Position numbers and translations under genes: made by a program. Under the pieces are notes generated by a model. It searched no databases. It was not told where the DNA came from and saw nothing but the letters and a program-made list of their open reading frames with translations. From Zavarzinia marina (GTDB lineage: Bacteria > Pseudomonadota > Alphaproteobacteria > Zavarziniales > Zavarziniaceae), in the NCBI RefSeq assembly GCF_021568905.1, contig NZ_JAKGSB010000006.1:186001-250000 (forward strand): a stretch of DNA of 64,000 nt. The letters run 5' to 3'. Shown piece by piece: positions 46,303-64,000 of the stretch (position 1 is the stretch's first letter; each line of letters begins with the position of its first letter).

Positions 46303-47457
46303 TCAGCCGAGGCGGTCCGCCACCTCGGCCACGGCGCAGGTGATGTGATAGAGGCTGCTGGCCCGCGTCGGCTCGATCATCGGCTTGCCGTCGGCGCCGA
46401 TATGCTCGTACCAGGCGCCGGCCACCGGATGCTCGAAGAAGCGCATCAGGCCCCGTAGCGCGGCGGCGGCCCTTCCGGCCGCCGCGTCGCGTTCGGCATC
46501 GTCGTCCGCCAGCGCCATGGCCAGGCAATGGGCCTTGGTGCGTTCCGTCTGCGGCCAGAGCCGGCAGCGGTCGTCGCGGATCGACAGGTCCCGGTTCAAT
46601 TCGTTGATGGCGAGGCCACCCACCGCATCCACCCCCGGCCCCTCGCCCACCGCGATCAGCCGGCGCGCCGCCGAAAGCGCGTCGTCGCGACGGCGCAGGC
46701 GGCCCCAGCGCAGCAAGAGCCAGGCCCATTCGAACTGATGGCCGGGTTCGACCACGTCGTCCGGCGGCGTGTCGATGCGGATCCAGTCGCCGTCGAAATA
46801 TTCCCGCAAGGCCCCCGTCCCGGGATCGAGGAAGGTGGCGAGGCAAAGCTCGGCAATCTCGTCCGCCAGGGCCATCCAGGCCGGATCGTCGGAAATCGCG
46901 GCCCAGGCGAGGCTCGCCTCCAACATGTGCATGTGGGGATTGGCCTTCAGCGGCAGGCTGCGGGGGCGGCTTTCCTCGAAGCCGGCGCGGGGATGGGCGA
47001 AACCCGCCTGCATCCGCCCGCGAATGCCTTCCGCCAGGGCCTCCAGATCCGCCGCCTTCTCCCCGACCGAGGCAGCCGCCGCCAGCCCGAAGAGGACGAA
47101 GGCGTGGTCATAGAGGTCGAAACCATCGTCCAGCACCGTGCCCGTCTCGTCGGTGGTGCGGATGACGAGCCCGGCGGGGCTGACGAAACGGTCCAGCCCC
47201 TTGATGCCATGGCGCAGGATCGCCCGTGCCGGCCCGGGCCAGCCCAGCTTTTCCGCCGTGGCGAAGGCATAGATCTGGCGCCCGGTCACCCGTGCCCTGC
47301 GCGGCTCGGCCAGGATCGCGCCATCGGGCGCCAGCTTCTCGATGAAACCGCCGTGCTCGAAATCCGTGCCCCGCGTCGACCAGAGCGGCAGGGCCCGGTC
47401 GAACAGCCAGGCCCTGATGTCGGCGAAGGCCGCCGCCAGGTCCGCGCGGCCGCTCAC
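46303..47457 (-). CDS. AGE family epimerase/isomerase
   Basis: 384 residues with the (alpha/alpha)6 barrel of N-acylglucosamine 2-epimerase/mannose isomerases. Landmarks are GRQIYAFATAEKLGW (near 55), NPHMHMLEASLAWA (near 175; catalytic His pair), and EPGHQFEWAWLLLRWG (near 240). Members interconvert mannose and fructose or epimerise GlcNAc. GTG 47457 overlaps the upstream stop (GTGA). Next to manC and GDP-heptose genes, it may supply mannose units; the exact sugar is uncertain. Confidence 0.88.
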   Translation of the reverse strand: MSGRADLAAAFADIRAWLFDRALPLWSTRGTDFEHGGFIEKLAPDGAILAEPRRARVTGRQIYAFATAEKLGWPGPARAILRHGIKGLDRFVSPAGLVIRTTDETGTVLDDGFDLYDHAFVLFGLAAAASVGEKAADLEALAEGIRGRMQAGFAHPRAGFEESRPRSLPLKANPHMHMLEASLAWAAISDDPAWMALADEIAELCLATFLDPGTGALREYFDGDWIRIDTPPDDVVEPGHQFEWAWLLLRWGRLRRRDDALSAARRLIAVGEGPGVDAVGGLAINELNRDLSIRDDRCRLWPQTERTKAHCLAMALADDDAERDAAAGRAAAALRGLMRFFEHPVAGAWYEHIGADGKPMIEPTRASSLYHITCAVAEVADRLG

Positions 47458-48683
47458 GGCGCTTTCCCCGCCGTCAGGAGGCCGCGGGCGAAATCGGCCA
47501 GATTGCCGCCCGCGAACAGATGCGCCTCGATCCCCGCCGCCCGCGCCGCCGCCAGATCGCTCTCGCGGTCGCCGATCAGCAGGCTGCGGGCGCGGTCCAC
47601 CGGCCAGCGGTCCAGCAGGTCGAAGATCATGCCGGGTTCGGGCTTTCGCCGGTCGCTGGCGCGGCGGAAGGCTTCGACGCTCGCTTCCGGATGGAACGGG
47701 CAATGGCGCTCGTCGTCGATATGGGCGCCCCGTTCCGCAAGGCCGTCGCGGATGTGGCGGCGAAGCGCGAAATAATCCGCCTCGCCGTACATGCCCTTGC
47801 CGATGCCGGCCTGATTGGTGACGACGAAGACGTAGAAGCCCAGGCGGTTGGCGAGACGGATGGTTTCGGCCGCTCCCTCCACCCATTCGAAGCGGTCGAT
47901 GGTGCCGACATGGCCGTGGTCGATATTGATCACGCCGTCGCGGTCGAGGAACAGGGCGGGCTTGCGCCGGCGGGCCGGGATCTCCGTCTGGGCGCGGGCA
48001 TAGTCGGCGGGTATGCCGATGTCGAGGAAGTAACCTTCCGCGACATGGCCGATCAAGGCGCGTTCCGCGACCAGTTTCGGCATGGTGTCGCGCTCCAGGG
48101 AACACAGGGGTTCCAGGCGCTCGACCATGGCGCGGCGGAACAGATAGACCCCCGCATTGACCAGGGCCGGCGCGCCTTCGGCCGGCGCGGCGGCGGCGAA
48201 ATCGTCGATCCGGTCGCCGTCCAGGGTGACGACGCCGTAACGCCCCGCCGCGGGCAACGGGCGCAGGCTGAGGACGCCGAGCACGCCGTCGTCGTCCGGC
48301 AGGGCGGCGGCGACATCGGCCAGCGGGATGTCGAACCATGAATCGCCGTTGAACAGGAAGAACAGGTCGTCCAGCCGGTCGCGGGCGTGCCAGATGGCGC
48401 CGCCGGTGCCGGCCCGGTCCGGCTCGATCGCGATTTCGACCGATATGTCCATGCCGAGCTTCCTCGGCAGGGCGGCGGCGAAATCCCGTACCTGATCGGA
48501 GGCGAAGGCGGCCAGCAGCAGGAAGCGGCGCACGCCCTGGCGCGCGATCTCCTCGATCTGGATTTCCAGGAACGGCCGGCCGGCGACCGGCAGCAGGGGT
48601 TTCGGCGTATCGGCCGTGAGGCTGCCGAGGCGGCTGCCCAGGCCGCCGACGAGAATGACGGCCTGATCGGCCCGTGCCACCAT
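47454..48683 (-). CDS. Fusion of heptose-1-phosphate guanylyltransferase and heptose bisphosphatase
   Basis: 409 residues. Residues 1-225 are a nucleotidyltransferase (GGLGSRLGSLTADTPKPLLP), like HddC. Residues 240-409 are a HAD phosphatase like GmhB: FLDRDGVINIDHGHVG, VVTNQAGIGKGMY, zinc-type loop HCPFHPE, IGDRESDLAAARAAGI. Together they would dephosphorylate heptose 1,7-bisphosphate and activate the 1-phosphate to GDP-D-glycero-alpha-D-manno-heptose. In other bacteria these are usually separate genes. It follows hddA by 13 bases and is coupled to the AGE gene. Confidence 0.88.
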   Translation of the reverse strand: MVARADQAVILVGGLGSRLGSLTADTPKPLLPVAGRPFLEIQIEEIARQGVRRFLLLAAFASDQVRDFAAALPRKLGMDISVEIAIEPDRAGTGGAIWHARDRLDDLFFLFNGDSWFDIPLADVAAALPDDDGVLGVLSLRPLPAAGRYGVVTLDGDRIDDFAAAAPAEGAPALVNAGVYLFRRAMVERLEPLCSLERDTMPKLVAERALIGHVAEGYFLDIGIPADYARAQTEIPARRRKPALFLDRDGVINIDHGHVGTIDRFEWVEGAAETIRLANRLGFYVFVVTNQAGIGKGMYGEADYFALRRHIRDGLAERGAHIDDERHCPFHPEASVEAFRRASDRRKPEPGMIFDLLDRWPVDRARSLLIGDRESDLAAARAAGIEAHLFAGGNLADFARGLLTAGKAP

Positions 48684-48696
48684 CCGCGTTCCGCCC

Positions 48697-49734
48697 CTAC
48701 AATTGCCAGGCTTGGCTGCCGACGTCGTTGAACTTCACCGGGCTGGACTGGCCGCCCGCATCGTTGAGGGCCTGCAGCAGCGAATAGCGGTTTTCCGGCT
48801 GCACCATGAAGAACATGAAGCCGCCGCCGCCGGCGCCGGAAACCTTGCCGCCCTCCGCCCCGTGCTTGAAGGCGATGCGGAACAATTCGTCGATCCGGTC
48901 GGTGGAAACGCCGGTCGCCGTCGCCTGCTTGGCCTTCCAGGATTCGTTCAGGATGTCCGCCATGCGCCGCAGATTGCCGACCAGAAGGGCGCGCTTCATC
49001 TCGACCGCGTCGATCTTCAGCTTCTGCATGGCGTCGATGGTCTTGGCGCTGGCGGTATTGAGGCCCGCCTGCTGGCGGTCGATGATCTCGGCCGAGGCGC
49101 GGGAGCGCCCCGAGAAACAGACCACGAGGGAGCTCTCGAGCTCGTTCACCACCGCTTCGGAGACACGCAGCGGGTTCACGATCACCCGGTCGTCCGCCAG
49201 GAATTCGATGAAGTTGATGCCGCCGAAGGCCGCCGCGTATTGATCCTGGCGCCCGCCCGCGAGACCGAGGTCGATACGCTCGATCTCGAACGCCAGATGC
49301 GCGACGTCGTATTTGCCGAGCGGCGCGCCCATCACTTCGCGAAAGGCATCGACCAGCGCGACGACGAGGGCCGAGGAGGAGCCGAGGCCGGAGCCCGCCG
49401 GCGCGTCGACCGTGGTCTTGATGGTCATGGGCCAGATATCGCCGCCGCCGAAGTCCGCCACCATGCGCTCGTAGACGCCGCGATGCAGGAGCAGCCTGGC
49501 ATCCGCCATGGGCTGGCCGATCTCGAACGTCTCCGAATAGCCGATGTCGTCGGACTGGAAGCAGACCTTGCCGTCGGTGCGCGGCAGGATCGAGGCGAAG
49601 GCATAACGCTCGATCGTCGCGTTCAGGACGGCGCCGCCGAACCGATCGCAGAAGGGGGACAGATCGGTGCCGCCCCCGGCGAGGCCGAGGCGCAGGGGCG
49701 CGCGGGCCCGTGTCTTTCGATAGTCGGAAGCCAT
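48697..49734 (-). CDS. hddA: D-glycero-alpha-D-manno-heptose 7-phosphate kinase
   Basis: 345-residue GHMP kinase. The N-terminal motif RAPLRLGLAGGGTDLSPF is typical of HddA. The ATP loop is GSGLGSSSALVVAL (near residue 108), and the third motif is KVSGAGGGGFMFF (near 303). It phosphorylates heptose 7-phosphate at C1. A sedoheptulose isomerase (GmhA) is absent from the window. Part of the minus-strand operon manC-hddA-hddC/gmhB-AGE, with 26 bases to manC. Confidence 0.92.
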   Translation of the reverse strand: MASDYRKTRARAPLRLGLAGGGTDLSPFCDRFGGAVLNATIERYAFASILPRTDGKVCFQSDDIGYSETFEIGQPMADARLLLHRGVYERMVADFGGGDIWPMTIKTTVDAPAGSGLGSSSALVVALVDAFREVMGAPLGKYDVAHLAFEIERIDLGLAGGRQDQYAAAFGGINFIEFLADDRVIVNPLRVSEAVVNELESSLVVCFSGRSRASAEIIDRQQAGLNTASAKTIDAMQKLKIDAVEMKRALLVGNLRRMADILNESWKAKQATATGVSTDRIDELFRIAFKHGAEGGKVSGAGGGGFMFFMVQPENRYSLLQALNDAGGQSSPVKFNDVGSQAWQL

Positions 49735-49760
49735 GGCACCACCCCCCGGGGCGAAAGGGA

Positions 49761-50810
49761 TCAGAGAACTTCCTTCAGGCGCACGGCCTGGTCGATCCTG
49801 GTGACCAGCACGCCGGACGCGCTGACCACGACCGCCAGATCCTCCACCCCCAGGATGCGCACGGGCAGACCGTCGGAGATGATGATGTTGTTGCGCGCAT
49901 CGCGCATGCGCACGTCGCCGATGGTGACGTTGCCGACCTCGCATTTCGGCAGTTCGACATAGGCCGCCTGCCAGTTGCCGAGGTCGGACCAGCCGCAGGA
50001 CAGCGGCACAGTCACCACCCTGTCCGCCCGTTCGAACAGGGCGTAGTCGATGGAATTCTTGGGCGCCGAGGCGAAGGCTTCGGCATCGAGGATATAGGAG
50101 CCGGACAGCGGGCCGGGCACCGCCTCGACGACGGCCCGCGTGGCCGCGTCCAGGATCTCCTTCATGTGCTTTTCCGCCTCGGCCAGGAAGCCCTTGGCGG
50201 TCAGCACGAACATGCCGGCGTTCCAGTCGAAGCGGCCGGACGCGAGATAGGTGACGGCCGTGGTGATGTCCGGCTTCTCGTGGAAGCTGGCGACCGAGAA
50301 GGCGCCGTCGTGGCCGTCGAGGGCATCGCCGCGCTCGACATAGCCGAATTCCGTCGCCGGCCGGTCCGGCGCGATGCCGAAGGTGACGAGATGATCGGCG
50401 AGAGCGGCGACCGACGCCACCTTCAGCGCCGCATTGAACGCCGCCTCGTCACGGATCAACTGGTCGGAGGGAAAGATCCCGATCGGCACGTTGGCGCCGT
50501 GATGGCGGGCCACCCAGGCGACGGCGGCGGCGATCGCGGCGGCGGAATCCCGGCGCTGCGGCTCCAGCAGGATGGTGCCCTCGTCGAGGCCGATCTCCGC
50601 CAGTTGCTCGCGCACCACCGTCTCGTGGACCGTATTGCAGATGATGAGGGGGGCCGCCGCGCCGGGCACCGCGAGACGCTTGACCGTGATCTGGAACAGG
50701 CTGCGGTCCTGCCAGATCTTCAGGAATTGTTTCGGCATCATGTCGGTGGAGAGTGGCCAGAAACGGGTCCCCGACCCACCGCACAGAATGACCGGAACCA
50801 GACCTGTCAT
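49761..50810 (-). CDS. manC: Mannose-1-phosphate guanylyltransferase
   Basis: 349 residues. Makes GDP-mannose from mannose 1-phosphate and GTP. The signature is LCGGSGTRFWPLSTDMMPKQ (residues 9-28), followed by FPSDQLI, FHEKPD and DWNAGMFVL. Only the pyrophosphorylase part is present; the C-terminal isomerase domain of bifunctional ManC/AlgA is absent. GAGGTG precedes ATG 50810. First gene of its operon. Confidence 0.92.
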   Translation of the reverse strand: MTGLVPVILCGGSGTRFWPLSTDMMPKQFLKIWQDRSLFQITVKRLAVPGAAAPLIICNTVHETVVREQLAEIGLDEGTILLEPQRRDSAAAIAAAVAWVARHHGANVPIGIFPSDQLIRDEAAFNAALKVASVAALADHLVTFGIAPDRPATEFGYVERGDALDGHDGAFSVASFHEKPDITTAVTYLASGRFDWNAGMFVLTAKGFLAEAEKHMKEILDAATRAVVEAVPGPLSGSYILDAEAFASAPKNSIDYALFERADRVVTVPLSCGWSDLGNWQAAYVELPKCEVGNVTIGDVRMRDARNNIIISDGLPVRILGVEDLAVVVSASGVLVTRIDQAVRLKEVL

Positions 50811-51198
50811 GATCGCACCTCGATAACCCGAACTCGTCCCCGGGCCCGAATTCCCCCCGGGCCCCAGATTCCGCCAGTCGCGGAAAGCGGGGGCACGCAG
50901 TTTCAACCGCCGGCCGTCGACCGTCCGGAAACCTGCGTCGAGTCCCCCATGGCCAAGGCAGCCTACACGCGCCGCTCCCAGATTGCCACCGGCGACCGGC
51001 CAACCTTGACCCCGCTCGGCGCCGCCCCCTATCATGCCGCGCTCGTGTTTCAGGAATACCGTCCCGGCGGCGGATCATCGTGACGGTCTCATTTCCAGCA
51101 CAAGGCCAGACTCCGGCGCCAAGCCAGACTCCGGCGCAAAGGCAAACTCCGGCACAAAGCCAAGCCACGCCGCGGAACGGCGGAGGGAGCCGTCGGCC
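50811..51198. other. Divergent region between manC and kpsC
   Basis: 388 bases without a credible gene. It contains the 18-bp tandem repeats at 51105-51158 and a strong SD (GGAGGGAG, about 51182) for kpsC. Promoters for both operons are expected here, but none stands out by eye. Confidence 0.6.
51105..51158. repeat. 18-bp tandem repeat, three copies
   Basis: Units at 51105-51122, 51123-51140 and 51141-51158, consensus GCCAGACTCCGGCGCAAA, the third with three changes. They lie 41 bases before the kpsC ATG. The 18-base length would keep frame with kpsC if translation began further upstream (repeat peptide PDSGAK). Confidence 0.85.
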
Positions 51199-53304
51199 AT
51201 GGCTGAGGCGGACGACATGACACCCCCGGCGCGCACGAACGCGGCGAAGCTCGCCGTCCTCGCCCTGCCCATGTTCTGGCGGGTGCGGGGGCTCGACCGT
51301 TTTCTCGACGGCATCGGCCGGCCGGTCTGGCACAGCGGCCTGTTCCGCCCGAGGCCCGACGTCGTCGCCGTCGTCGGCTGGGGCCGGAAGAAGCCGTCGC
51401 GGCGCGCCATGCGGGCGGCGGCCCGCTGGGGCCTGCCCTTCTTGACCGTCGAGGACGGGTTCCTGCGCTCCGCCGGCCTCGGCGTCACGGGCACGCCGCC
51501 GCTCTCCATCGTGCTCGACGACCGGGGCGTTCACTACGAGGCGGCGCCGCCGTCCGCCATCGAGGACGACCTGGCGCAATGGCTGGCGATCCCGCCGGCC
51601 GACATCGCGGCCGCCCGCGCCCTGATCGAGACGATGCGCGGCCATCTGATCGGCAAATACAACGACGCCCCGGACCTGCCGGCGGATGATCCGGCCGGGC
51701 GGGACCGCCCCCTCGTCCTCGTCGTCGACCAGACCCGGGGCGATGCCTCGATCACCGGCGGCGGGGTCGGCGCCGGCGATTTCATCGCCATGCTGGAGGC
51801 GGCCGTCGCCGAGAACCCGGGGGCCGAGCTTCGCGTGAAGGTCCATCCCGACGTTCTGGCCGGCAAGCGCGCCGGCTTCCTGCTGGAGGCGGCGCGGGAA
51901 CGCGGCATCGCGCTCGAAACCAGGCCCGTCTCCTGGCCGTCGCTGGCGCGGCGCGCGGCGCGGGTCTATGTCGCGACCAGCCTCGCCGGCATGGAGGCGC
52001 TGATCCAGGGCGTGCCCGTCACCTGTTTCGGCCTGCCCTTCTTCGCCGGCTGGGGCCTGACGGACGATCGCCGCCCGGCACCTTGGCGCAGTGCGCGGCC
52101 GACACTGGAGGCGGTGGTCGCCGCCGCCTATGTCCGCGCCTGCCGCTATCGCGATCCTCTGTCCGGTGGTCCCGCCACGGCGCTGGACATCGCCCGCCAT
52201 GTCGCCGGCATCAAGCGGAACGACAGGGATTTCGCCGGCCTGACCGTGGTCATGGGCCTGCGCCCCTGGAAGCACGCGCGCATGCGCCGGTTCCTCGCCA
52301 GCCGCTGGGGCCGGGTCCGTTTCGCCGGCGACGTCGGACGCGCCGTGGCGACGGCGAAGAGCGCCGGCGGAAGGGTCGCGGTCTGGGCCGCCCGCGCGCC
52401 CGCCGGGCTGGCGGACGCCTGCGCCGCCGAGGGCGTCCCGCTGTGGCGCATCGAGGACGGTTTCCTGCGTTCCGTCGGTCTCGGTTCCGATCATGTCGCC
52501 GCCGCCTCCCTGGTGATCGACCGCCAGGGCATCTATTTCGACCCGACCCGGCCGAGCGACCTCGAGAGCCTGCTGGAAGAGAGCCGCTTCGACGACGCCC
52601 TGCTGGCCGAGGCGGCGCGCCTGCGCCGCGTCATCGTCGAGCGCGGCCTGACCAAATACAACGTCGGGCGGGCCGAGGGCGTCACCCTCGGCGCCGCGCC
52701 GGGCCAGCGCCGCATCCTGGTGCCCGGCCAGGTGGAGGACGATGCCTCGGTCCAATTGGGCGCGCCCTGGGTCGGCGGCAATCTCGGCCTGCTGAAGGCG
52801 ACGCGGGCGGCGGCGCCCGATGCCTGGATCGTCTACAAGCCGCATCCGGACGTCGAGGCCGGCAACCGCCAGGGCGCGGTGCCCCACGACGTGGTGCGCC
52901 GCTTCGCCGACCAGATCGTGATCGATACCTCGGTCGTCACTCTCTTCGACCTGGTCGACGAGGTTCACACCATGAGTTCGCTGGTCGGCTTCGAGGCCCT
53001 GATGCGCGGCCTGAAGGTCACCGCCCACGGCCAGCCCTTCTATGCCGGCTGGGGCCTGACCACCGATCTCCGCCCCCTGCCCCGGCGCCGCCGGCGCCTC
53101 GCGCTCGACGAACTGGTGGCCGGGGCGCTGCTGCTCTACCCCCGCTATTGCGATCCCGAGAGCGGGCTGCCCTGCGACGTCTGGCATGTCGTCGACATGC
53201 TCTCGGCACGGCGGCCGCAACCGGCGCGCGGCCTGCGCCAGCGCGCCATGCGCGGGCTGCGCCTGGCCGGCGCCCTGCTGCGCGCCCTGATCGGTGGTCG
53301 CTGA
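51199..53304 (+). CDS. kpsC: Capsular polysaccharide biosynthesis protein KpsC (dual Kdo transferase)
   Basis: 701 residues made of two homologous halves. Half one has VEDGFLRSAGLG (near residue 85) and FAGWGLTDDRRP (near 282). Half two has IEDGFLRSVGLG (near 420), YKPHPDVEAGNRQG (near 548) and YAGWGLTTDLRP (near 616). In enterobacteria these halves are the beta-Kdo transferases that build the poly-Kdo linker on phosphatidylglycerol for ABC-exported capsules. The same chemistry is expected here. KpsS, KpsM and KpsT partners are not in the window. Confidence 0.93.
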   Translation: MAEADDMTPPARTNAAKLAVLALPMFWRVRGLDRFLDGIGRPVWHSGLFRPRPDVVAVVGWGRKKPSRRAMRAAARWGLPFLTVEDGFLRSAGLGVTGTPPLSIVLDDRGVHYEAAPPSAIEDDLAQWLAIPPADIAAARALIETMRGHLIGKYNDAPDLPADDPAGRDRPLVLVVDQTRGDASITGGGVGAGDFIAMLEAAVAENPGAELRVKVHPDVLAGKRAGFLLEAARERGIALETRPVSWPSLARRAARVYVATSLAGMEALIQGVPVTCFGLPFFAGWGLTDDRRPAPWRSARPTLEAVVAAAYVRACRYRDPLSGGPATALDIARHVAGIKRNDRDFAGLTVVMGLRPWKHARMRRFLASRWGRVRFAGDVGRAVATAKSAGGRVAVWAARAPAGLADACAAEGVPLWRIEDGFLRSVGLGSDHVAAASLVIDRQGIYFDPTRPSDLESLLEESRFDDALLAEAARLRRVIVERGLTKYNVGRAEGVTLGAAPGQRRILVPGQVEDDASVQLGAPWVGGNLGLLKATRAAAPDAWIVYKPHPDVEAGNRQGAVPHDVVRRFADQIVIDTSVVTLFDLVDEVHTMSSLVGFEALMRGLKVTAHGQPFYAGWGLTTDLRPLPRRRRRLALDELVAGALLLYPRYCDPESGLPCDVWHVVDMLSARRPQPARGLRQRAMRGLRLAGALLRALIGGR

Positions 53305-53580: not shown

Positions 53581-55029
53581 TTGCTACCTAGCGCTACGCC
53601 ATCGCGGACGGTGGGCACGCCCCGTGCCACGGACGAGGCGTGCCGCAGGGCCGAAGATCCCGGCGCGCCTTGCGGACCGGCGATCGGCGGATCGTCCCCC
53701 GCCGTCGATCCCCGGCTGAAGGGCCGGCGCATCGCCGTCGACGGCCACAATCTGGCCCTGCCCCATGGCACCGGCGTCGCCACCTATGCCCGGACCCTGA
53801 CCTATTGCCTGCGCGATCTCGGCTGCCGGGTCGACATTCTCTACGGACAGCGGGTCCACCTCGATCCCGCGCCGATCCTCCGCGAAATCGCCTTTCTCGA
53901 TCCGGCCGGGGTGCCGCTCCGGCGCGGCGCCCTGCGCCGCGTGCGCGATGCCGCGACGGCCTTCTTCGGCCGGGACGCCGAAATCATCGACATGCGGGGC
54001 CGGGCGATCGCGGACGATGTCGCCGGCACCCTGCCCTATTTCGACCGGATCGCCGCCGTGCCGCGCCTGTTCCAGGAGGCCACGCGCCATTTCCGCCGCT
54101 TCGGCCGCTTCCTCGAGGTCCGCATGCCGGAAACGCCGGAGATCATGCACTGGACCTATCCGCTGCCGGTCCGGGTCGCCGGGGCCCTGAACGTCTACAC
54201 GCTGCACGACCTCGTGCCGCTGCGCTTGCCGACGCTGACCCTGGACGACAAGAAGTACTATCATTCGCTGATCGGCGAATGCATCCGCCGGGCCGACCAC
54301 ATCTGTACCGTTTCCGAACGGTCCAAGGCGGACATACAGGACATGTTCGATGTCGCGGACGACCGCATCACCAATACCTATCAATCGGTGGTCCTGCCGG
54401 CGATCAGCGCGAACCAGGAGGAAAGCGAGTCGCGCCACTACGTCGAGGAGGTCTACGGCTTCCCGTGGCAGGGCTATTTCCTGTTCTTCGGCGCGATCGA
54501 GCCGAAGAAGAACGTGTCCCGCCTGATCGAGGCCCTGCTGAAGGCCTGGCCGTCGCGCCCCCTGGTCATCGTCGGCAATCCGGTGTGGAAGGCCCTGAAC
54601 GAGAGCAGCTTCCTCGAGGACTACGAGCGCGAGATCGCGGCCACCGGGGCGGCGCGCCGGCTCTACAAGTTCGGCTACCTGCCCCAGTCCCACCTCGCCG
54701 GGCTCGTGCGGGGCGCCCGTGCCGTGCTCTTTCCCTCGCTCTACGAGGGTTTCGGCCTGCCCGTGGTCGAGTCCATGCTGATGGGCACGCCGGTGCTGGC
54801 GTCGACCGAGGGATCGTTCCCGGAAATCGCCGGCGATGCCGCCCTGCTTGCCGATCCCTACGACGTGGATGCGATCGCGCGGGCCATCACCGACCTCGAC
54901 AGCGACGACGAACTGGTGAACCGCCTGTCGGCCCGCGGGCCGGAACAGGCCGCGCGCTTCGGCATTCCCCCCTATATGGAGAGACTGTCACGCATGTATG
55001 CCAAGGTCCTGGGCCTCACGGCCGCCTGA
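53581..55029 (+). CDS. Family 4 glycosyltransferase (first)
   Basis: 482 residues, GT-B fold. The donor-side motifs are LFFGAIEPKKNVSRLIEAL (near 300) and FPSLYEGFGLPVVESM (near 383), with the typical E-x7-E pair. The acceptor half opens with IAVDGHNLALPHGTGVATYA (near 50). The first about 45 residues are low complexity; start is TTG 53581 (GGGGGG upstream) or GTG 53611, so the N-terminus is uncertain. Adds a sugar during polysaccharide assembly; sugar unknown. Next glycosyltransferase starts 12 bases after its stop. Confidence 0.88.
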   Translation: MLPSATPSRTVGTPRATDEACRRAEDPGAPCGPAIGGSSPAVDPRLKGRRIAVDGHNLALPHGTGVATYARTLTYCLRDLGCRVDILYGQRVHLDPAPILREIAFLDPAGVPLRRGALRRVRDAATAFFGRDAEIIDMRGRAIADDVAGTLPYFDRIAAVPRLFQEATRHFRRFGRFLEVRMPETPEIMHWTYPLPVRVAGALNVYTLHDLVPLRLPTLTLDDKKYYHSLIGECIRRADHICTVSERSKADIQDMFDVADDRITNTYQSVVLPAISANQEESESRHYVEEVYGFPWQGYFLFFGAIEPKKNVSRLIEALLKAWPSRPLVIVGNPVWKALNESSFLEDYEREIAATGAARRLYKFGYLPQSHLAGLVRGARAVLFPSLYEGFGLPVVESMLMGTPVLASTEGSFPEIAGDAALLADPYDVDAIARAITDLDSDDELVNRLSARGPEQAARFGIPPYMERLSRMYAKVLGLTAA

Positions 55030-55041
55030 GTGTGATAGAGA

Positions 55042-56382
55042 ATGGCAATGGCGAAGATACTGCTCGACATCTCCCGGCTCAGCGGCCGCGACCCGGACCG
55101 GCCGCCATCGGGCATCGACCGGATGGAATACACCTATCTCTGCCACTTCCTGAACCAGCCGGCGCCGCGCATCGGCTTCTTTTCGATCCGGGGCAACAGC
55201 TTCCGGCGCATCACCCGCGACGACGCCCTGGCGCTGCGCGACAAGATCGCCGCCGACTGGGTCGACCGGGTCGACCCCGAACTGCATCGCCGGCTGCGCC
55301 GCTTCTCCCCCCTGATGGACCGTTTCATCCGCGCCAGCGAGCGCCTGATGGGCGAGCGCATCGACCCGGTCCCGGCGGTGCGCGGGCGGATCTTCAAGCG
55401 CGGGACGCCGTCTTCGGTGCTGCTCTCGGTCTCTCACGGCGGCATCGACAAGACCGGGCTCTGGGCCGGGCTCAAGGAGCGTTTCAACGCCGGCCTCGCG
55501 GTCTTCCTGCACGACCTCATCCCCTACCATCATCCGGAATTCGCCCGGGCCGGCGAGGACCGGCGCCATTTCGCCCGGCTCGAGACGATGATGAGCACGG
55601 CCGATGTCGTGCTGACCAATTCCCTGGTCACGGCACGGGAATTCAAGGCCTTCTGTGCCCAGGCGCACCAGCCGCCGCCGCCGGTCCGGGTGCTGCCCCT
55701 CGGCATCTCGCCCCTGTTCCTCGGCCAGCAGCCGACGACCCACGACGAGGACGTGCCCTGGTTCATCATGGTCGGCACGATCGAGCCGCGGAAGAACCAC
55801 AACCTGCTGCTGGCGCTGTGGCGCCGCCTGCGCGAACAGCTCGGCCGGAAGACACCGAAGCTCATTCTCGTCGGCCGGCGCGGCTGGGAAACCGAGAGCA
55901 CGGAACGGATCCTCGACCGCTGCCTCGCCCTGCGGGACTGCGTGGTCGAACTGCCCAGCCTGTCGGATCCGCAACTGGTCGAACTGCTGCGGCGGTCCAA
56001 TGCCCTGCTCTTTCCCTCCTTCGTCGAAGGCTACGGCCTGCCGATCGCCGAGGCGCTGGCGGTCGGCGTGCCCGTGCTCTGCTCGGACATTCCCGCCTTC
56101 CGCGAGGTCGGCGGCGACATCCCCGACTTCATCGACCCGCTGGACGGACCGAGCTGGATGCGGGCGATTCTCGACTATTCGTCACCGGATTCGATTGCCC
56201 GGACGGCGCAGCTCGAACGTCTGAAGGCCTATCAGCCGCCGACCTGGGCGCGACATTTCGCCCTCCTGGAAACGTCGCTGGTGCGGTATTGCAGCCTCGA
56301 GGCCATCCCCGCGACAACCGAGGCCGGCGCGGTCAACGGGCCCTCGCTGACGGGCGGCACGCTGCCGGTAATCCCCGACTGA
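55042..56382 (+). CDS. Family 4 glycosyltransferase (second)
   Basis: 446 residues. Retaining GT-B enzyme: FIMVGTIEPRKNHNLLLAL (near 245) and FPSFVEGYGLPIAEALAV (near 322). The N-terminal half begins LLDISRLSGRDPDRPPSGID, typical of this polysaccharide subgroup. Diverged from the preceding gene but of the same family. Acts in the cytoplasm on a lipid-linked sugar acceptor, by family. Confidence 0.9.
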   Translation: MAMAKILLDISRLSGRDPDRPPSGIDRMEYTYLCHFLNQPAPRIGFFSIRGNSFRRITRDDALALRDKIAADWVDRVDPELHRRLRRFSPLMDRFIRASERLMGERIDPVPAVRGRIFKRGTPSSVLLSVSHGGIDKTGLWAGLKERFNAGLAVFLHDLIPYHHPEFARAGEDRRHFARLETMMSTADVVLTNSLVTAREFKAFCAQAHQPPPPVRVLPLGISPLFLGQQPTTHDEDVPWFIMVGTIEPRKNHNLLLALWRRLREQLGRKTPKLILVGRRGWETESTERILDRCLALRDCVVELPSLSDPQLVELLRRSNALLFPSFVEGYGLPIAEALAVGVPVLCSDIPAFREVGGDIPDFIDPLDGPSWMRAILDYSSPDSIARTAQLERLKAYQPPTWARHFALLETSLVRYCSLEAIPATTEAGAVNGPSLTGGTLPVIPD

Positions 56383-56598
56383 CGCCTTCCCCCCAAGGCT
56401 TGAAATCACTTCAGCCAACGCCCGCGCCGCGCGAGGCACCGAGCCGAAAACCCCCTCTTCCGGGCCCCGGACGTGGCGCAATTCGGTGCGGATTCTTCAA
56501 GGGCGACTGGAATTGAGCACCTGCAACATGTCATTATCCGCCCGGTTTGCCACGCGGGGGCGTGTGCTTGAAGCACGGGCGCATTTTTGGAGCATATC

Positions 56599-59500
56599 AT
56601 GCAGGAATTTCAGGGGACGGCGGCGAAGGTAGCGATCATCTGCCCGTCGCTGGGCAAGAGCTGCGGCATCGCCCGCTATTCCCACTATGTCGCGGATTCG
56701 ATCCAGCGGCTGGGGATGTCGACTTCGCTCATGCGCTCGTCCGAAGATCTCGACAAGGAAGATGCGGGGGCGGCTTCCTACGATTTCATTCTGGTGCAGC
56801 ACGAATACGGCCTCTTCGACAATCTCTCGCCGCTCGGCACCGGCGAAACGACGGCCAAGCTGGTCGGCAACATCGAACGCTATCTAGCGGCCCATCCCGG
56901 CGCCCGCGCCGCGATCGTCATGCACACCGTGGTCCTGACCGACCACGTGCTGAACATCATGAACCAATGCCTGTTCGGCTCGTCGATCCCGGTGGTCAAC
57001 CTGAACAGCCGCGGCTGCTACGAGATGGCGATTCCACACCTCGAGCACGGCGTCTACGTCTATGACGCTTCCGGCGACGGCCCGAGCAAGGCGCTCTCCC
57101 CGTCCGCCGACAACCGCCGCCGCGACCGGCCGACGGTTGGCAGCTTCGGTCTGCTGTCACCCAACAAGAAGCCGACCCTGATCATCGACATCTGCGAACG
57201 GGCCCAGGCCAATTTCATCGGCAATTTCGCGACCAACAATCGTACCGCCGCCCGCGAACTGCTCGACTATGCCGAGCGGCTGAAGGTCGGCGCGACCGTC
57301 TTCAACGACTTCTGCGAAGAGAAGGACCTGCTGGAACGCCTGGCCCCGATGGACTTCGGCGTCGTGACCCAGGAACCGATCACCCATTGGGCGACCTCCG
57401 GCTCGATCCGCTTCCTGTTCAACTTCGGCGTGCCGATTCTCGTTCCCTACGGCCCCCAGTTCGAGGATTGCGCCGAAGGCGTGATCTTCGCCCATCAGGA
57501 CGAGATGCACTTCAGGATCGACGAGCTCTTCGCCAGCCCCGACACCTATGAGCTCGCCTGCGAGCGCAGCAAGGCCTTCGCCGTCAAATACGAGATGTCG
57601 AAGGTCTACGAGAAGTTCCTGAAGATGCTGGCGGACACCCAGCCGTCCGCCCTGACCGACTATCGCATCCGGAACTTCCGCGACCAGCGCCGCTCCGTCA
57701 CCATGGTCGACATGATGCTGACCGCGGGCGTCAAGAAGGGCCTCACGTCCAGGGAAGCCGAACAATCCGTGCTGGCGGCCTGCGCCGCCGAGGACGGCGA
57801 GGGGATCGCCCTTCAGGCCGCCGTCGACGAGCAGTTCGAGGCGACGCCCTTCCTGCGCTACGGCGTCGCCTGCGAAGGCCTGATATCGCCTTATCTCGGC
57901 GCGGCGGACCGGTTGAACCTTCTCGCCTCATGCTCGACCCTGCCGTCGAACCTCTATCAGGTGGAACGCTTCCTGTCCCATGACGACACGCTGTCGACGG
58001 TCGTCCGGCGGGAAACCCTGCGCGACATCCAGGGCATCCAGCGCGAGTATCACGACGTCGTCTCGAACAAGATCTTCTCGGCCAGCGTGACCGGCAAGCT
58101 CGTCAAGCAGCTCTTCCCGGACATCTACGGCAAGGCGGATCGGGATTCGGTGCAGCGCCTGCGCCGGCTGATGCAGGACTATGTCGACCGCATCGGCTTC
58201 GGCGGCACCGCCGAACGCATTCCGGTGCGCATCCCGACCCTGCTGATCATTCCGGCCGCCAAGATGATCTCCTATCTCCGGCGGGTGGGTGGCCTGACTT
58301 CGGCCGAAATCCTGGGCCTGGTCGAAAGCGTCGGCCTGCCGAACGACATCTTCGACGACCGCCTGCCGTGGATCGAGGGGGCGACGCAATATATCGCCGA
58401 AAAGACCGGCACACCGGTCTCGGCGGCGATCGGCAACGCGACGGAGTTCCAGACCCGCTATCGCGCCTTCAAGGCCGAATTCGCCATGATGTCGAACGAG
58501 CAGTTCGTCTATTCGGCGCTCGCGCTCTATTTCAAGACGCAGCCGTCGCGCAAGCGCCTGTCCGACATCGCCGACGCCATCGACGGCAAGTCGCGGACCG
58601 AGGCGCTGCTCTACCTCTCGCAGCAGCCCGAGGCGACCCTGTTCCAGAGTGCCGTCGTGGACCTGGACAGCGAAGCATCCTACGACGATCTGGCGAAGCC
58701 GATCCTGGTCAAGAAGATCATCGACGAATTCTTCCTGTCCCAGAACGGCTCCTTCGACAATTCCGTGTCGGAGCAGAATTTCTACCAGATTTCGCGGTTC
58801 TGGCTGTTCAATTCCCTGAAGGCCGGCCTGACCAACGACCTGTTCCGCGAGAAGAAGTCCCTCGGCCTGAAGGATCGGCTGAAGGCGGCCGAACCGAAGG
58901 CGCCGGAACCGATCTGGCTGCCCGAAGACATCCTGCCGGAACTGCTGCGGGCATTGTCGGGCGACGCCGCCGCACCGGCCGAAGCCATGCTGTTCGGCGG
59001 CGCCATCGAGCCGGCGCTCCTGGAAATGGTCGCCGAGAAGGCCGAATTCATCCCGAGCCTGATCGAACTGAACGCCATGGTGGGCACGACCGCCGAGATG
59101 AACGTGCAGCCCGAACCCTGGACCGGGACCGCCAGCCAGATGCCGCAGCGGTCTCGGACCGTCACGCTCTCGCCCTTTCAGGAACGCGACGTCGGCTCGA
59201 AGTCGATGCCGATCTTCGATCCGTCGGCCGCCAACGAACTGAGCGTGGTCGGCCTGCCCGACAAGCTGTGGGTCAACGCCTGGAACGCGATCTCGCGCTT
59301 CACGGGCGCCAAGATCGTGGGGCCGCTCGAATTCCGCCGCGTCTCGCCCTGGATCATCTCGATCGATCAGGTCGTCGAGGAGGATGAATTCGACTTCGTC
59401 ATCGTCCACAAGGGCCAGATCGACACCATGCCGAAATGGCTGAAGGACGAGATCGTCAAGAGCTTCCACCCCTATTTCGCCAATGAAGTCTTCATCATCT

Positions 59501-59625
59501 TCAGCAAGCCCGAGGTCCAAGCCCTGCATTTCGACGATGCCCATGTCCGCGTCGCGCGCGAACTGGTGCCCCAGCGTCGCAACAAGAGCATCGGCAAGAG
59601 CATCGGCAAGCTGCTGACGCGCTGA
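56599..59625 (+). CDS. 1008-residue protein: glycosyltransferase-like N-terminus, unrecognised C-terminus
   Basis: Residues 1-350 look like a GT-B glycosyltransferase: VAIICPSLGKSCGIARYSHY at the N-terminus, ILVQHEYGLFDN (near 67), then SFGLLSPNKKPTLIIDI (near 180) and WATSGSIRFLFNFGVPILVP (near 265). The usual EGFGLP donor loop is missing. Residues 360-1008 are mostly helical and unrecognised; FVYSALALYFKTQPSRKRLSDIADAI (near 635) faintly recalls DUF4214 repeats. The end has a duplicated KSIGKSIGK tail. No signal peptide or membrane helix, so it is probably cytoplasmic. Start ATG 56599 has GGAG upstream. Confidence 0.75.
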   Translation: MQEFQGTAAKVAIICPSLGKSCGIARYSHYVADSIQRLGMSTSLMRSSEDLDKEDAGAASYDFILVQHEYGLFDNLSPLGTGETTAKLVGNIERYLAAHPGARAAIVMHTVVLTDHVLNIMNQCLFGSSIPVVNLNSRGCYEMAIPHLEHGVYVYDASGDGPSKALSPSADNRRRDRPTVGSFGLLSPNKKPTLIIDICERAQANFIGNFATNNRTAARELLDYAERLKVGATVFNDFCEEKDLLERLAPMDFGVVTQEPITHWATSGSIRFLFNFGVPILVPYGPQFEDCAEGVIFAHQDEMHFRIDELFASPDTYELACERSKAFAVKYEMSKVYEKFLKMLADTQPSALTDYRIRNFRDQRRSVTMVDMMLTAGVKKGLTSREAEQSVLAACAAEDGEGIALQAAVDEQFEATPFLRYGVACEGLISPYLGAADRLNLLASCSTLPSNLYQVERFLSHDDTLSTVVRRETLRDIQGIQREYHDVVSNKIFSASVTGKLVKQLFPDIYGKADRDSVQRLRRLMQDYVDRIGFGGTAERIPVRIPTLLIIPAAKMISYLRRVGGLTSAEILGLVESVGLPNDIFDDRLPWIEGATQYIAEKTGTPVSAAIGNATEFQTRYRAFKAEFAMMSNEQFVYSALALYFKTQPSRKRLSDIADAIDGKSRTEALLYLSQQPEATLFQSAVVDLDSEASYDDLAKPILVKKIIDEFFLSQNGSFDNSVSEQNFYQISRFWLFNSLKAGLTNDLFREKKSLGLKDRLKAAEPKAPEPIWLPEDILPELLRALSGDAAAPAEAMLFGGAIEPALLEMVAEKAEFIPSLIELNAMVGTTAEMNVQPEPWTGTASQMPQRSRTVTLSPFQERDVGSKSMPIFDPSAANELSVVGLPDKLWVNAWNAISRFTGAKIVGPLEFRRVSPWIISIDQVVEEDEFDFVIVHKGQIDTMPKWLKDEIVKSFHPYFANEVFIIFSKPEVQALHFDDAHVRVARELVPQRRNKSIGKSIGKLLTR

Positions 59626-59745: not shown

Positions 59746-61083
59746 ATGACCCGAGAAGCCTTCATCGCCGCCAATCGCTTCGGCCTCGGGCCGCGCCCCG
59801 GGGAGATGGCGGCCCTTGCCCGCGATCCGCGGGCGGCCCTGACCGCGCAATTGGACGCCCCCGCACCGCCGAGTGACCTGCCGGATACGGCCGGTGCCCT
59901 CGACATCGCCGAAACGTCACGCGCCATGCGCGCGGCGGGCCGAAAGGACCTGGACGGCGACGGCCACCCCGACAATCCGGCGCATGAGCTCTACCTGCGC
60001 GAAGTCGAGGCACGCTTTCGCCGCTGCGTCGCCACCACCGCGCCACTGCGCGAGCGCCTCGTCCTGTTCTGGTCCAACCATTTCACCGTGTCGGTCGCGC
60101 GGGGCCGGATCCTCCCCCTCGCCGGCGTTTTCGAGCGCGAGGCCATCGCCCCTCACGTCACCGGACGGTTCGAGGATCTGCTGCGCGCGGCGGCCCTGCA
60201 CCCGGCGATGCTCGACTATCTCGATCAGACCCGGTCGTTCGGGCCGGATTCGAAGATCGGCCGGCGCCGGGCGACCGGCCTCAACGAGAATCTCGGGCGC
60301 GAGATCCTGGAGCTCCACACCCTCGGCGTCGACGGCGGCTATGATCAGGCGGACGTCATCGCGCTTGCCGAGATCCTCACCGGATGGTCGGTGGTGGAAG
60401 GCGGCGGCGGCGCGCCGCGGCGCTTCGGCTTCGATGCCGACCGGCATCAGCCGGGCGACAAGCGCCTGCTCGGCACGCGGATCCGCGAAGGCGGCGCCGG
60501 CGAGACCGGTGACGCCTTCGCCCTGCTGGCGCGCCACCCGTCGACGGCCCGGCATCTCGCCACCAAACTGGTCCGGCATTTCGTCGCCGACGATCCCCCG
60601 GCGGAGGCGGTCGAGCGGATCGCCGCCCTCTATCTGCGGACCGGCGGCGACCTGCGCGCGGTCTCCGCCGGGCTGATCGGCCTGGATGCCGCCTGGCGCG
60701 ATCCCTTCGCCAAGGTCAAGACGCCCTGGGAACTGGTGGTGAGCATGGCGCGCGCCCTTGCCCATCCCGGCGCCGATGCCGAAATTCCCCTGGTGCTCCA
60801 GCGCCTGCGCCAACTCGGCCAGCCGCCCTTCGGCGCCCCTTCCCCGGCCGGCTGGCCCGACCGGGCGGACGACTGGTTGGGGCCGGACGCGCTGCTGCGC
60901 CGGATCGATCTCGCGGGCGACGTCGCGCGGCGGGTCGGCGACAGGATCGACCTCGGCGCCCTGATCCGCGAGACCATCGCCCCCGTCACGCCTGCGCCGA
61001 AATTGCGTCTTATCGAAGGGGCTGGCGATCTTGCCTCCGGTATCGCCATGGTCTTCGCCGCCCCCGAATTCCAGCAGCGGTGA
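59746..61083 (+). CDS. DUF1800 family protein
   Basis: 445 residues. The family opens MTREAFIAANRFGLGPRP and continues with LVLFWSNHFTVSV (near 106), GLNENLGREILELHTLGVDG (near 184) and KTPWELVVSMARAL (near 325). DUF1800 proteins occur next to DUF1501 genes, here 40 bases downstream, and are thought to act together; the biochemical role is unknown. No clear signal peptide. Confidence 0.9.
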   Translation: MTREAFIAANRFGLGPRPGEMAALARDPRAALTAQLDAPAPPSDLPDTAGALDIAETSRAMRAAGRKDLDGDGHPDNPAHELYLREVEARFRRCVATTAPLRERLVLFWSNHFTVSVARGRILPLAGVFEREAIAPHVTGRFEDLLRAAALHPAMLDYLDQTRSFGPDSKIGRRRATGLNENLGREILELHTLGVDGGYDQADVIALAEILTGWSVVEGGGGAPRRFGFDADRHQPGDKRLLGTRIREGGAGETGDAFALLARHPSTARHLATKLVRHFVADDPPAEAVERIAALYLRTGGDLRAVSAGLIGLDAAWRDPFAKVKTPWELVVSMARALAHPGADAEIPLVLQRLRQLGQPPFGAPSPAGWPDRADDWLGPDALLRRIDLAGDVARRVGDRIDLGALIRETIAPVTPAPKLRLIEGAGDLASGIAMVFAAPEFQQR

Positions 61084-61123: not shown

Positions 61124-62341
61124 ATGGACATTCGCATCGATCGCCGCGACCTGCTCCTCGGCCTGCTCGGGTCCGGACTCGCCGTGACCGCGCCGCGCGT
61201 CGCCTATGCGCGCGTGCCGGACGACCGCCGTTTCATCTTCATCCTGCTGCGCGGCGGCATGGACGGGCTGTCGGCGGTGCCGCCGGTCGGCGACCGGGAC
61301 TACGCCGCCCTTCGCGGTGCCCTGGCGATCGCCCCGGTCGGCAAGGCGGACGGTGCGCTAGGTCTCGACGACCGCTTCGGCCTGCACCCGGCGCTGGCGC
61401 CGATCCATGGTCTCTGGTCCAAGGGCGAGCTGGCGATCGTCCATGCCGCCGCCACGCCCTATCGCGAACGCTCGCATTTCGATGCCCAGAACGTGCTGGA
61501 GACGGGCGGCAATGCGCCCTCGCACGATGGCATCGGCTGGCTGAACCGTGCCATCGGCCTGATGCGGCAGGACGGCGCGCCGCGCGGCCGCGATCTCGGC
61601 CTTGCCGTCAACGAGGCGGCGCCGCTGGTCATGGCCGGGCCGGCCCGGGTCGCGACCTGGGCCGGACCCGGCGGCGGCGCACCGCCCACGGACTATCTGC
61701 TGGATGCGGTCGATCGGCTCTATGCCGACAGCCCGCGCTTTCACGCGGCGCTGGCCACCGCCCGGGACACGCGCGCCCTTCTCGCCGCGAGCGAGGACGG
61801 CATGGCGGGCAAGGAACCCGGACAGAGCCGGCTGATCCCCGTGTTCGGCGGCCTGGCCACGCTGATGCGGGCGGAAGGCGGGCCGCGCATCGCCACCCTC
61901 GAGGTGACGGGATGGGACACCCATACCGGGCAGGGCGCCGTCATGGGCAAATTCGGCAAGCTGCTCGGGCAATTCGCCGACGCCCTCGCCGAATTGCGCC
62001 GGGGTCTCGGCCCGGCCTGGGCCCGGACCGTCGTCGTCGCGGCGACGGAATTCGGCCGGACGGCCGTCCCGAACGGGACGGGCGGCACCGATCACGGCAC
62101 GGCTGGCGCCGCCTTCGTGCTGGGCGGCGCCGTGGCCGGCGGACGGATGATCGCGGATTGGCCGGGTCTCTCGCCGCAGCGCCTGTACCAAGGCCGCGAC
62201 CTCGCCCCGACCACGGATCTGCGCGGCGTCTTCGCCGGCGTCCTGCGGGACCATCTCGGCCTGCCGGCGGCGGACATCCGCCGCCAGATCTTCAGCGACG
62301 CCGCGGATCTGGCCTTCGTGCCGGGCCTGACCCGGGGCTAG
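61124..62341 (+). CDS. DUF1501 family protein, Tat-exported
   Basis: 405 residues. The N-terminus IDRRDLLLGLLGSGLAVTAP is a twin-arginine signal. The fold belongs to the alkaline-phosphatase/sulfatase-like DUF1501 family: FIFILLRGGMDGLSAV (near 38), WDTHTGQG (near 264), TEFGRTAVPNGTGGTDHGTA (near 307). The conserved His/Asp residues may bind metal. Follows the DUF1800 gene; the pair is common in proteobacteria. Function is not known. Confidence 0.9.
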   Translation: MDIRIDRRDLLLGLLGSGLAVTAPRVAYARVPDDRRFIFILLRGGMDGLSAVPPVGDRDYAALRGALAIAPVGKADGALGLDDRFGLHPALAPIHGLWSKGELAIVHAAATPYRERSHFDAQNVLETGGNAPSHDGIGWLNRAIGLMRQDGAPRGRDLGLAVNEAAPLVMAGPARVATWAGPGGGAPPTDYLLDAVDRLYADSPRFHAALATARDTRALLAASEDGMAGKEPGQSRLIPVFGGLATLMRAEGGPRIATLEVTGWDTHTGQGAVMGKFGKLLGQFADALAELRRGLGPAWARTVVVAATEFGRTAVPNGTGGTDHGTAGAAFVLGGAVAGGRMIADWPGLSPQRLYQGRDLAPTTDLRGVFAGVLRDHLGLPAADIRRQIFSDAADLAFVPGLTRG

Positions 62342-62749: not shown

Positions 62750-64000
62750 TCAATCGCTCAGGAAGCGCGTGATGCCCGCCACGCGGAAGATCACATCGGC
62801 CAGATCCTGAACGAACTGGAAGCCCTTGAAGCTGACTTCCGGCAGCACCACGATCTCGTCGCCCGGCTCCACCCTGGGATCGCCGACGAGCTGGATCGCG
62901 CCATTCGGCTTCTGCACCAGGAAATAGTCGCGCTGGGCCCTGTCGGTGAAGGAGCCGGCCTGATCGATATAGTCGTCGATCGTCATGCCCTTCTGCCAGA
63001 CGATGGTCTGGGGCGCGAGCACTTCGCCGGCGATCAGCACCGTGGACGAGCGCTTCGGAATGACGACGACATCGTCGTTTTCCAGCGGGATGTCCGCGAT
63101 CCCGCCCTTCTCGTCCATGACGACGAGGGTGCCGTCCGGTTCGGCGCCGCGTACCCTGTCGATGAACTGCAGGACCATCTGCGCCTCGGCGGAGCGGAGC
63201 GCCGCCTCGCCGCTGGTCTCGACCACGGCGGTCAGCACGCTGCGCTGCAGGCGGTCGAGCGCCGCCTCGAGCGCCGCCTTCTGCTGCTGGGCGACGGTCG
63301 CCCGGCGCAGATGCACGGCGGGATAATTGGCGACGGCCGGATCGACCTCGACATGGGCGAGGAACTGGCGCAGCGTCACCGCCTTCGAGACGACATAGGT
63401 CGACTGGCCCTCATAGGCGCCTTCGAGGCGGACAGTGATCACGGGGGCCGAGGAATCCTGCTGGAATTCGGCGATGTCCTGATCGGCGAGGGTGAAGCCG
63501 CTGAATTCCGCCAGCGTCAGGTATTTCGACATCGGCACGCCGTCGCGCGTGCCCGTGACGAAGACATTGTTCACATTCGGCAGGGGCCGGGCGAGCGCGA
63601 TCAGCTCGGCGCCGGTCATGCGCGTGCCGATCATCTCGAAGATGGCTTCGTTGCGGACCACGCCCCGCGCCTTGACCACCGGATTCTGGCCGCCGACCAC
63701 GATGGTGTCGCCTTCCTGCAGCGAGACGCCGGGCAGGTCGCCATCGAGCAGGAAGTCGTAGAGATCGGCCGTCGCGATGGTGCGGCCGCCACGCTTCAGG
63801 TCGATGTCGCGATAGGAGCCGCTGCCCTCGAGAATGCCGCCGGCGCGCAGCAGATAGTCGAGGATCGAATCCGCCGGCGCGCCCAGGTGGCGGCCGGGCT
63901 GCGCGACGAAGCCGGTCACGAAGATGCCGATGGAACGCGAACCGACCAGGGTGCTGTAGACCTGCACGGTATCCGAAGGATAGGACTGCCGGACCTGGCG
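62750..64000 (-). CDS. Polysaccharide export protein, Wza/SLBB type, N-terminus beyond window
   Basis: The visible C-terminal 416 residues belong to an outer-membrane polysaccharide export or biosynthesis protein. Several SLBB-type beta-grasp domains appear: IFVTGFVAQPGRHLG, AGGILEGSGSYRDIDLKRG, then VLIAGEVLAPQTIVWQKGM with AGSFTDRAQRDYFLVQ. Repeated GDTIVV, DDVVVIPK and GDEIVVLPE strands close each. The gene is open to the right edge with no start in sight. The last residues (RFLSD) end at 62750. It would carry the assembled surface polysaccharide across the envelope. Confidence 0.88.
   Translation of the reverse strand, partial: RQVRQSYPSDTVQVYSTLVGSRSIGIFVTGFVAQPGRHLGAPADSILDYLLRAGGILEGSGSYRDIDLKRGGRTIATADLYDFLLDGDLPGVSLQEGDTIVVGGQNPVVKARGVVRNEAIFEMIGTRMTGAELIALARPLPNVNNVFVTGTRDGVPMSKYLTLAEFSGFTLADQDIAEFQQDSSAPVITVRLEGAYEGQSTYVVSKAVTLRQFLAHVEVDPAVANYPAVHLRRATVAQQQKAALEAALDRLQRSVLTAVVETSGEAALRSAEAQMVLQFIDRVRGAEPDGTLVVMDEKGGIADIPLENDDVVVIPKRSSTVLIAGEVLAPQTIVWQKGMTIDDYIDQAGSFTDRAQRDYFLVQKPNGAIQLVGDPRVEPGDEIVVLPEVSFKGFQFVQDLADVIFRVAGITRFLSD

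Follow-up and report, generated by a model that had tools for sequence, protein, structure and literature searches.

Among the polysaccharide genes of Zavarzinia marina, one gene codes for a protein of 1008 residues, only the first third of which had been read as a glycosyltransferase. What does this protein do, and what might its other 650 residues be for? Large multi-module transferases are usual in capsule loci of the ABC-dependent type. From the analysis of the gene and its window, a 64,000-nucleotide stretch of the Z. marina genome, we propose with moderate confidence that the protein works in the cytosol as a soluble glycosyltransferase of a poly-Kdo-linked, ABC-transporter-dependent capsule pathway; its C-terminus would be non-catalytic and hold the chain or dock partners.

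A gene of the Zavarzinia lineage

56599..59625, plus strand: 1008-residue protein, divergent GT4-like domain and C-terminal region without a family (open reading frame; full-length orthologues in four other genomes)

The open reading frame lies exactly where the sequence-only reading had placed it. It begins at an ATG, as does every orthologue; a second possible start, a TTG, is found 12 bases 5' of it. The gene is present in single copy in its genome. The protein family has five full-length members, including four orthologues 65-78% identical to the protein of the window. Three of these, with 78, 74 and 68% identity, belong to further genomes of the genus, among them that of Z. aquatilis, and the fifth member comes from a MAG of a sister genus in the same taxonomic family (65% identity). 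Given the five full-length members and low pN/pS values everywhere but in a hinge described below, this is a genuine gene. The gap 5' of it (56383-56598), which three Zavarzinia species have conserved, contains the inverted repeat CACGCGGGGGCGTG near the ribosome-binding site, a possible promoter or regulatory hairpin.

Two Zavarzinia genomes, G004 (100% complete) and G006 (74% complete), are devoid of the protein. Sequence and profile searches of about 380-385 alphaproteobacterial genomes yielded no further members, and phages and viral contigs harboured no relative. In plasmids, the sole match outside the family was a Sphingomonas GT4 protein (25.5% identity, E 2e-4; tblastn, 7.3 Gb). Beyond Zavarzinia, the 1008-residue protein has so far been seen in a single related genome, the sister-genus MAG.

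No matches to the protein were obtained in Pfam or NCBIfam (E 0.1), PHROGs, PADLOC or the PDB sequences, and no glycosyltransferase family profile matched any family member at E 10. The C-terminal 650 residues had been said to match no domain, and these searches, which turned up no clear match to any known family of enzymes, agree with that description. Hydropathy analysis likewise indicated no membrane helix (best 19-residue mean 1.25), as had been read from the sequence.

The GT4-related N-terminal domain

56599..57636, plus strand: GT-B/GT4-like glycosyltransferase domain, residues 1-346 (hhalign to L030/L031; BLASTP, 26% to L009)
57148..57174, plus strand: GLLSPNKKP, residues 184-192, where the C-terminal Rossmann half begins, basic residues retained (aligns with GLLSPNKGIE of GT4 relatives; within the invariant block 176-200)
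57370..57435, plus strand: donor-site loop QEPITHWATSGSIRFLFNFGVP, residues 258-279, EX7E glutamates replaced by T262 and F272 (alignment)

The Glycos_transf_1 and Glyco_trans_1_4 profiles of Pfam remained below the cut-off (E 0.1). HMM-HMM comparison of residues 1-346 with the GT4 pair L030/L031 gave an hhalign probability of 94.7 (E 6.2e-8, 298 columns), and the homology to accepted GT4 proteins spans both Rossmann halves. These alignments show a relationship between residues 1-346 and the GT4 glycosyltransferases. The first ~350 residues had been described as a GT-B enzyme without an EGFGLP donor loop; the HMM-HMM search places them close to GT4, and the loop is indeed missing.

L030 and L031 (768-769 residues) are relatives of the Sphingomonas GT4 protein, which Pfam clearly recognizes as such (PF13692, E 2.6e-16). 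With Sphingomonas paeninsulae WP_239025695 they represent a GH130-associated GT4 type, the members of which are merely 25-27% identical to the 1008-residue protein. The shared features are VQHEYG (VQHE.G in the type) and HT in the N-terminal half, followed by GLLSPNK and TSG.

The EX7E donor-site motif is not intact. In the family, position 262 is variable and F272 is invariant. L009, L030 and L031 carry TSGTL/TSGAL..G.P at the EGFGLP site and score as ordinary GT4 proteins. Because the second glutamate is absent from these relatives too, the missing loop represents, at least partly, a subfamily trait and need not mean degeneration. The block 176-200 is 100% invariant across five sequences. 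With pN/pS values of 0.11-0.30, the domain scores lowest within the protein in most comparisons; its cleft half hardly varies and is subject to purifying selection. The invariant block and the low pN/pS argue for a working site, the activity of which is predicted. In a full-length AlphaFold2 model (pLDDT 38), moderate confidence was confined to the first ~110 residues, which appear Rossmann-like.

The sequence-only reading had considered a degenerate or novel transferase. The replacement of both glutamates speaks for degeneration, but the absence of the second one in GT4 relatives and the conservation of the cleft half, the best-conserved part, speak against it. These data also bear on a first alternative, in which a catalytically dead GT-B domain would be retained to scaffold or regulate its two GT4 neighbours, for instance in chain length, with the C-terminus as an interaction platform. 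T262 and F272 fit this idea, as does the fact that two intact GT4 genes always precede the gene. The invariance of residues 176-200, the low pN/pS of the domain and the ordinary GT4 scores of relatives without the second glutamate argue the other way, and we consider a dead domain possible but doubtful. A putative scaffold or chain-length role as such is plausible.

The C-terminal region

57652..58878, plus strand: probably alpha-helical module without family match, residues 352-760 (helices in low-confidence models)
58879..59193, plus strand: fast-evolving hinge, residues 761-865 (pN/pS 0.42-0.91; alignment indels)
59194..59598, plus strand: conserved alpha/beta tail with the HKGQIDTMPKWL...FANEVFIIF motif, residues 866-1000 (pN/pS 0.22-0.44; weak Methylobacterium similarity)

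Residues 352-760 (pN/pS 0.29-0.48) and the tail are constrained, and they flank the fast-evolving hinge. Structure prediction and fold search, put forward earlier as a check, were performed on the full length and on residues 352-1008. With five related sequences, AlphaFold2 reached a pLDDT of 38 and 42, respectively, and Foldseek found no match at E 0.001 to these low-confidence models. Both show helices to about residue 835 and then an alpha/beta tail; the helix/strand periodicity in a propensity calculation is weakly in favour of a helical module. The models thus suggest a helical module from residue 352 to about 835, a hinge and an alpha/beta tail.

One GT-like domain is recognized in the chain, and the remainder has no match. 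We detected no internal repeats, no TPR at E 10, and no methyltransferase, kinase or Kdo-transferase module in Pfam or NCBIfam. The C-terminal domain of L030/L031 is unrelated to that of the 1008-residue protein (hhalign probability 0.2%), and an origin of the region from the GH130-associated GT4 relatives was rejected. DUF4214-like segments, suspected by eye at residues 600-690, gave no such Pfam match at E 10.

One GT-like protein of Methylobacterium also has the tail motif HKG...P..L...F.NEVF..F; the first match to it, at E 0.0069 per genome with 385 genomes searched, is not significant alone. This protein (L018 487-1821, minus strand; L026 11911-13332) carries HKGLIEQIP...FSNEVFVVF at its N-terminus, and its remainder is GT-like. 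Its gene has cox genes on one side and a threonine-synthase-like gene on the other and lies outside any capsule locus. A tail profile searched against 378 genomes across the phylum gave chance-level matches apart from the family and this protein, which was itself part of the profile. The tail was thus rejected as a widespread module.

The closest parallels in architecture are found among proteins of ABC-dependent glycan assembly. Cps3D and Cps7D, the cytosolic capsule polymerases of Actinobacillus pleuropneumoniae, possess a TPR module that is essential for linker elongation; when it is truncated, the enzyme acts more distributively (PMC11666461). Like the 1008-residue protein, they are large ABC-dependent capsule proteins that combine GT-B or GT-B-like domains with a long extra module. 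In Cps3D, the TPR module comes first and two GT-B domains follow, whereas the Zavarzinia protein starts with a single GT-like domain and has no detected TPR. With neither a TPR nor a second GT-B domain found, the likeness would be one of working rather than of membership. The O-antigen terminators with a coiled-coil ruler (WbdD, WbbB and ORF7-O4/GT137; PMC11231755) are likewise large, cytosolic, multi-module and partly unassigned. Unlike the WbdD/WbbB type, our protein has no methyltransferase or kinase domain match, and its locus is that of a poly-Kdo capsule, not of an O antigen.

As GT137 illustrates, a protein without assignment in a locus of this sort can turn out to be a new transferase (PMC11231755). 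A second alternative is a bifunctional enzyme, the C-terminal 650 residues of which would form another, undescribed catalytic module, such as a transferase of a new family. The precedent of GT137, discovered in an O-antigen protein that lacked an assignment and has a helical bundle, and the strongly conserved polar motifs of the C-terminus (HKGQIDTMPKWL, NEVF and RDIQGIQREYH) are consistent with it. Nevertheless, the middle region is helical, not Rossmann-like, in the low-confidence models, and no family match points to catalysis, which makes a second catalytic module unlikely. We see a similarly small chance that residues 352-1008 constitute an undescribed domain set, possibly including a second transferase, which would make the protein a novel type of capsule polymerase or transition enzyme that only the Zavarzinia lineage has.

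The capsule locus and the proposed function

47454..51035, minus strand: precursor genes for a ManC-like GMP transferase, an HddA-like heptose kinase and a nucleotidyltransferase/HAD fusion (Pfam, NCBIfam)
51199..53304, plus strand: KpsC-like beta-Kdo transferase, two Capsule_synth stretches (PF05159, E 4.8e-85)
53611..55029, plus strand: canonical GT4 glycosyltransferase (EGFGLP), second gene upstream in all loci (PF00534, E 1.7e-26)
55048..56382, plus strand: canonical GT4 glycosyltransferase (EGYGLP), directly upstream in all loci (PF00534, E 6.5e-21)
59746..61083, plus strand: DUF1800 protein, kept downstream neighbour in orthologous loci (PF08811, E 5.7e-115)
61124..62341, plus strand: DUF1501 protein, kept downstream neighbour (PF07394, E 7e-32)
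62750..64000, minus strand: SLBB polysaccharide export protein (KpsD/Wza type), running past the window end (full gene L019 3751-5412, PF02563, E 1.3e-13)

In every locus read, two GT4 genes precede the gene of interest and a DUF1800 gene follows, then a DUF1501 gene where the contig extends. In Z. aquatilis, genes for KpsM, KpsT, a KpsE-like protein, the SLBB exporter, the cassette formed by the GT4 pair and the 1008-residue protein, KpsS and KpsC are found on one contig, within about 25 kb. A 538-residue protein with weak TPR matches is encoded there between the GT4 pair and KpsS (L025 5068-6684, minus strand). In Z. marina, KpsC is encoded upstream of our gene on contig C14, and downstream the SLBB gene is followed, past the window end, by KpsE-like and KpsT-like genes (KpsT at C14:252333-253010); the KpsE label reflects position and general look, with no Pfam match. 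The KpsS (C12, 193079-194008) and KpsM (C1:2168-2938) genes are located apart from that contig, and the locus is split or rearranged relative to that of Z. aquatilis. What had been called a polysaccharide locus can thus be specified: the KpsC, KpsS and KpsM/KpsT/KpsE/KpsD set of an ABC-transporter-dependent (group 2-like) capsule is present.

Four KpsT-like ATPases (L019 7304-8263, minus strand; L020 6268-7071, plus strand; L053; L054) keep the Walker A sequence GTKGSGK. ABC ATPases are expected to have DE in Walker B and an LSGG-type signature motif; these four have YPIDD or YPIDG at Walker B and LP(A/S)STM(A/S)K at the signature position. All of them seem to lack the catalytic glutamate.

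The gene is conserved, the first third of its product is GT4-related and it lies behind two GT4 genes in a capsule locus. In such systems, KpsS and KpsC make a poly-Kdo linker on lipid, and further transferases extend the chain in the cytosol (PMC12220298). In the capsule transferase that we favour, the N-terminal domain would add one sugar to the chain or the linker. As the ManC- and HddA-type genes adjoin, and suggest mannose or heptose precursors, this sugar might be heptose or mannose. The C-terminal region would be non-catalytic and, like the TPR module of Cps3D/Cps7D (PMC11666461), hold the growing chain; alternatively, it might dock the two GT4 enzymes encoded upstream as well as the membrane machinery.

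The GT relationship, purifying selection on both ends of the protein, the invariant cleft block and the contiguous kps setting of Z. aquatilis all speak for the capsule role. In addition, G004, which has no 1008-residue protein, also lacks close KpsM and KpsT types. Against it stand the replaced EX7E glutamates, with transferase activity a prediction, the low pLDDT and weak propensity behind the helical C-terminus, the absence of TPR or other repeats, and the fragmented MAG G001, in which the protein is present and KpsM/KpsT were not detected. That the protein belongs instead with its DUF1800 and DUF1501 neighbours, directly downstream in the loci seen, or with another pathway is very improbable, as two glycosyltransferase genes precede it and the kps locus surrounds it in Z. 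aquatilis.

The protein is thus probably a lineage-restricted, GT4-derived capsule enzyme with a 650-residue region without known relatives. The priming, elongation and length limits of ABC-transporter-dependent capsules have been worked out in few pathogens. A conserved three-enzyme cassette in a lineage outside these pathogens would offer a compact system for the role of non-catalytic modules in capsule polymerases, and the 650-residue module could yield a new domain family.
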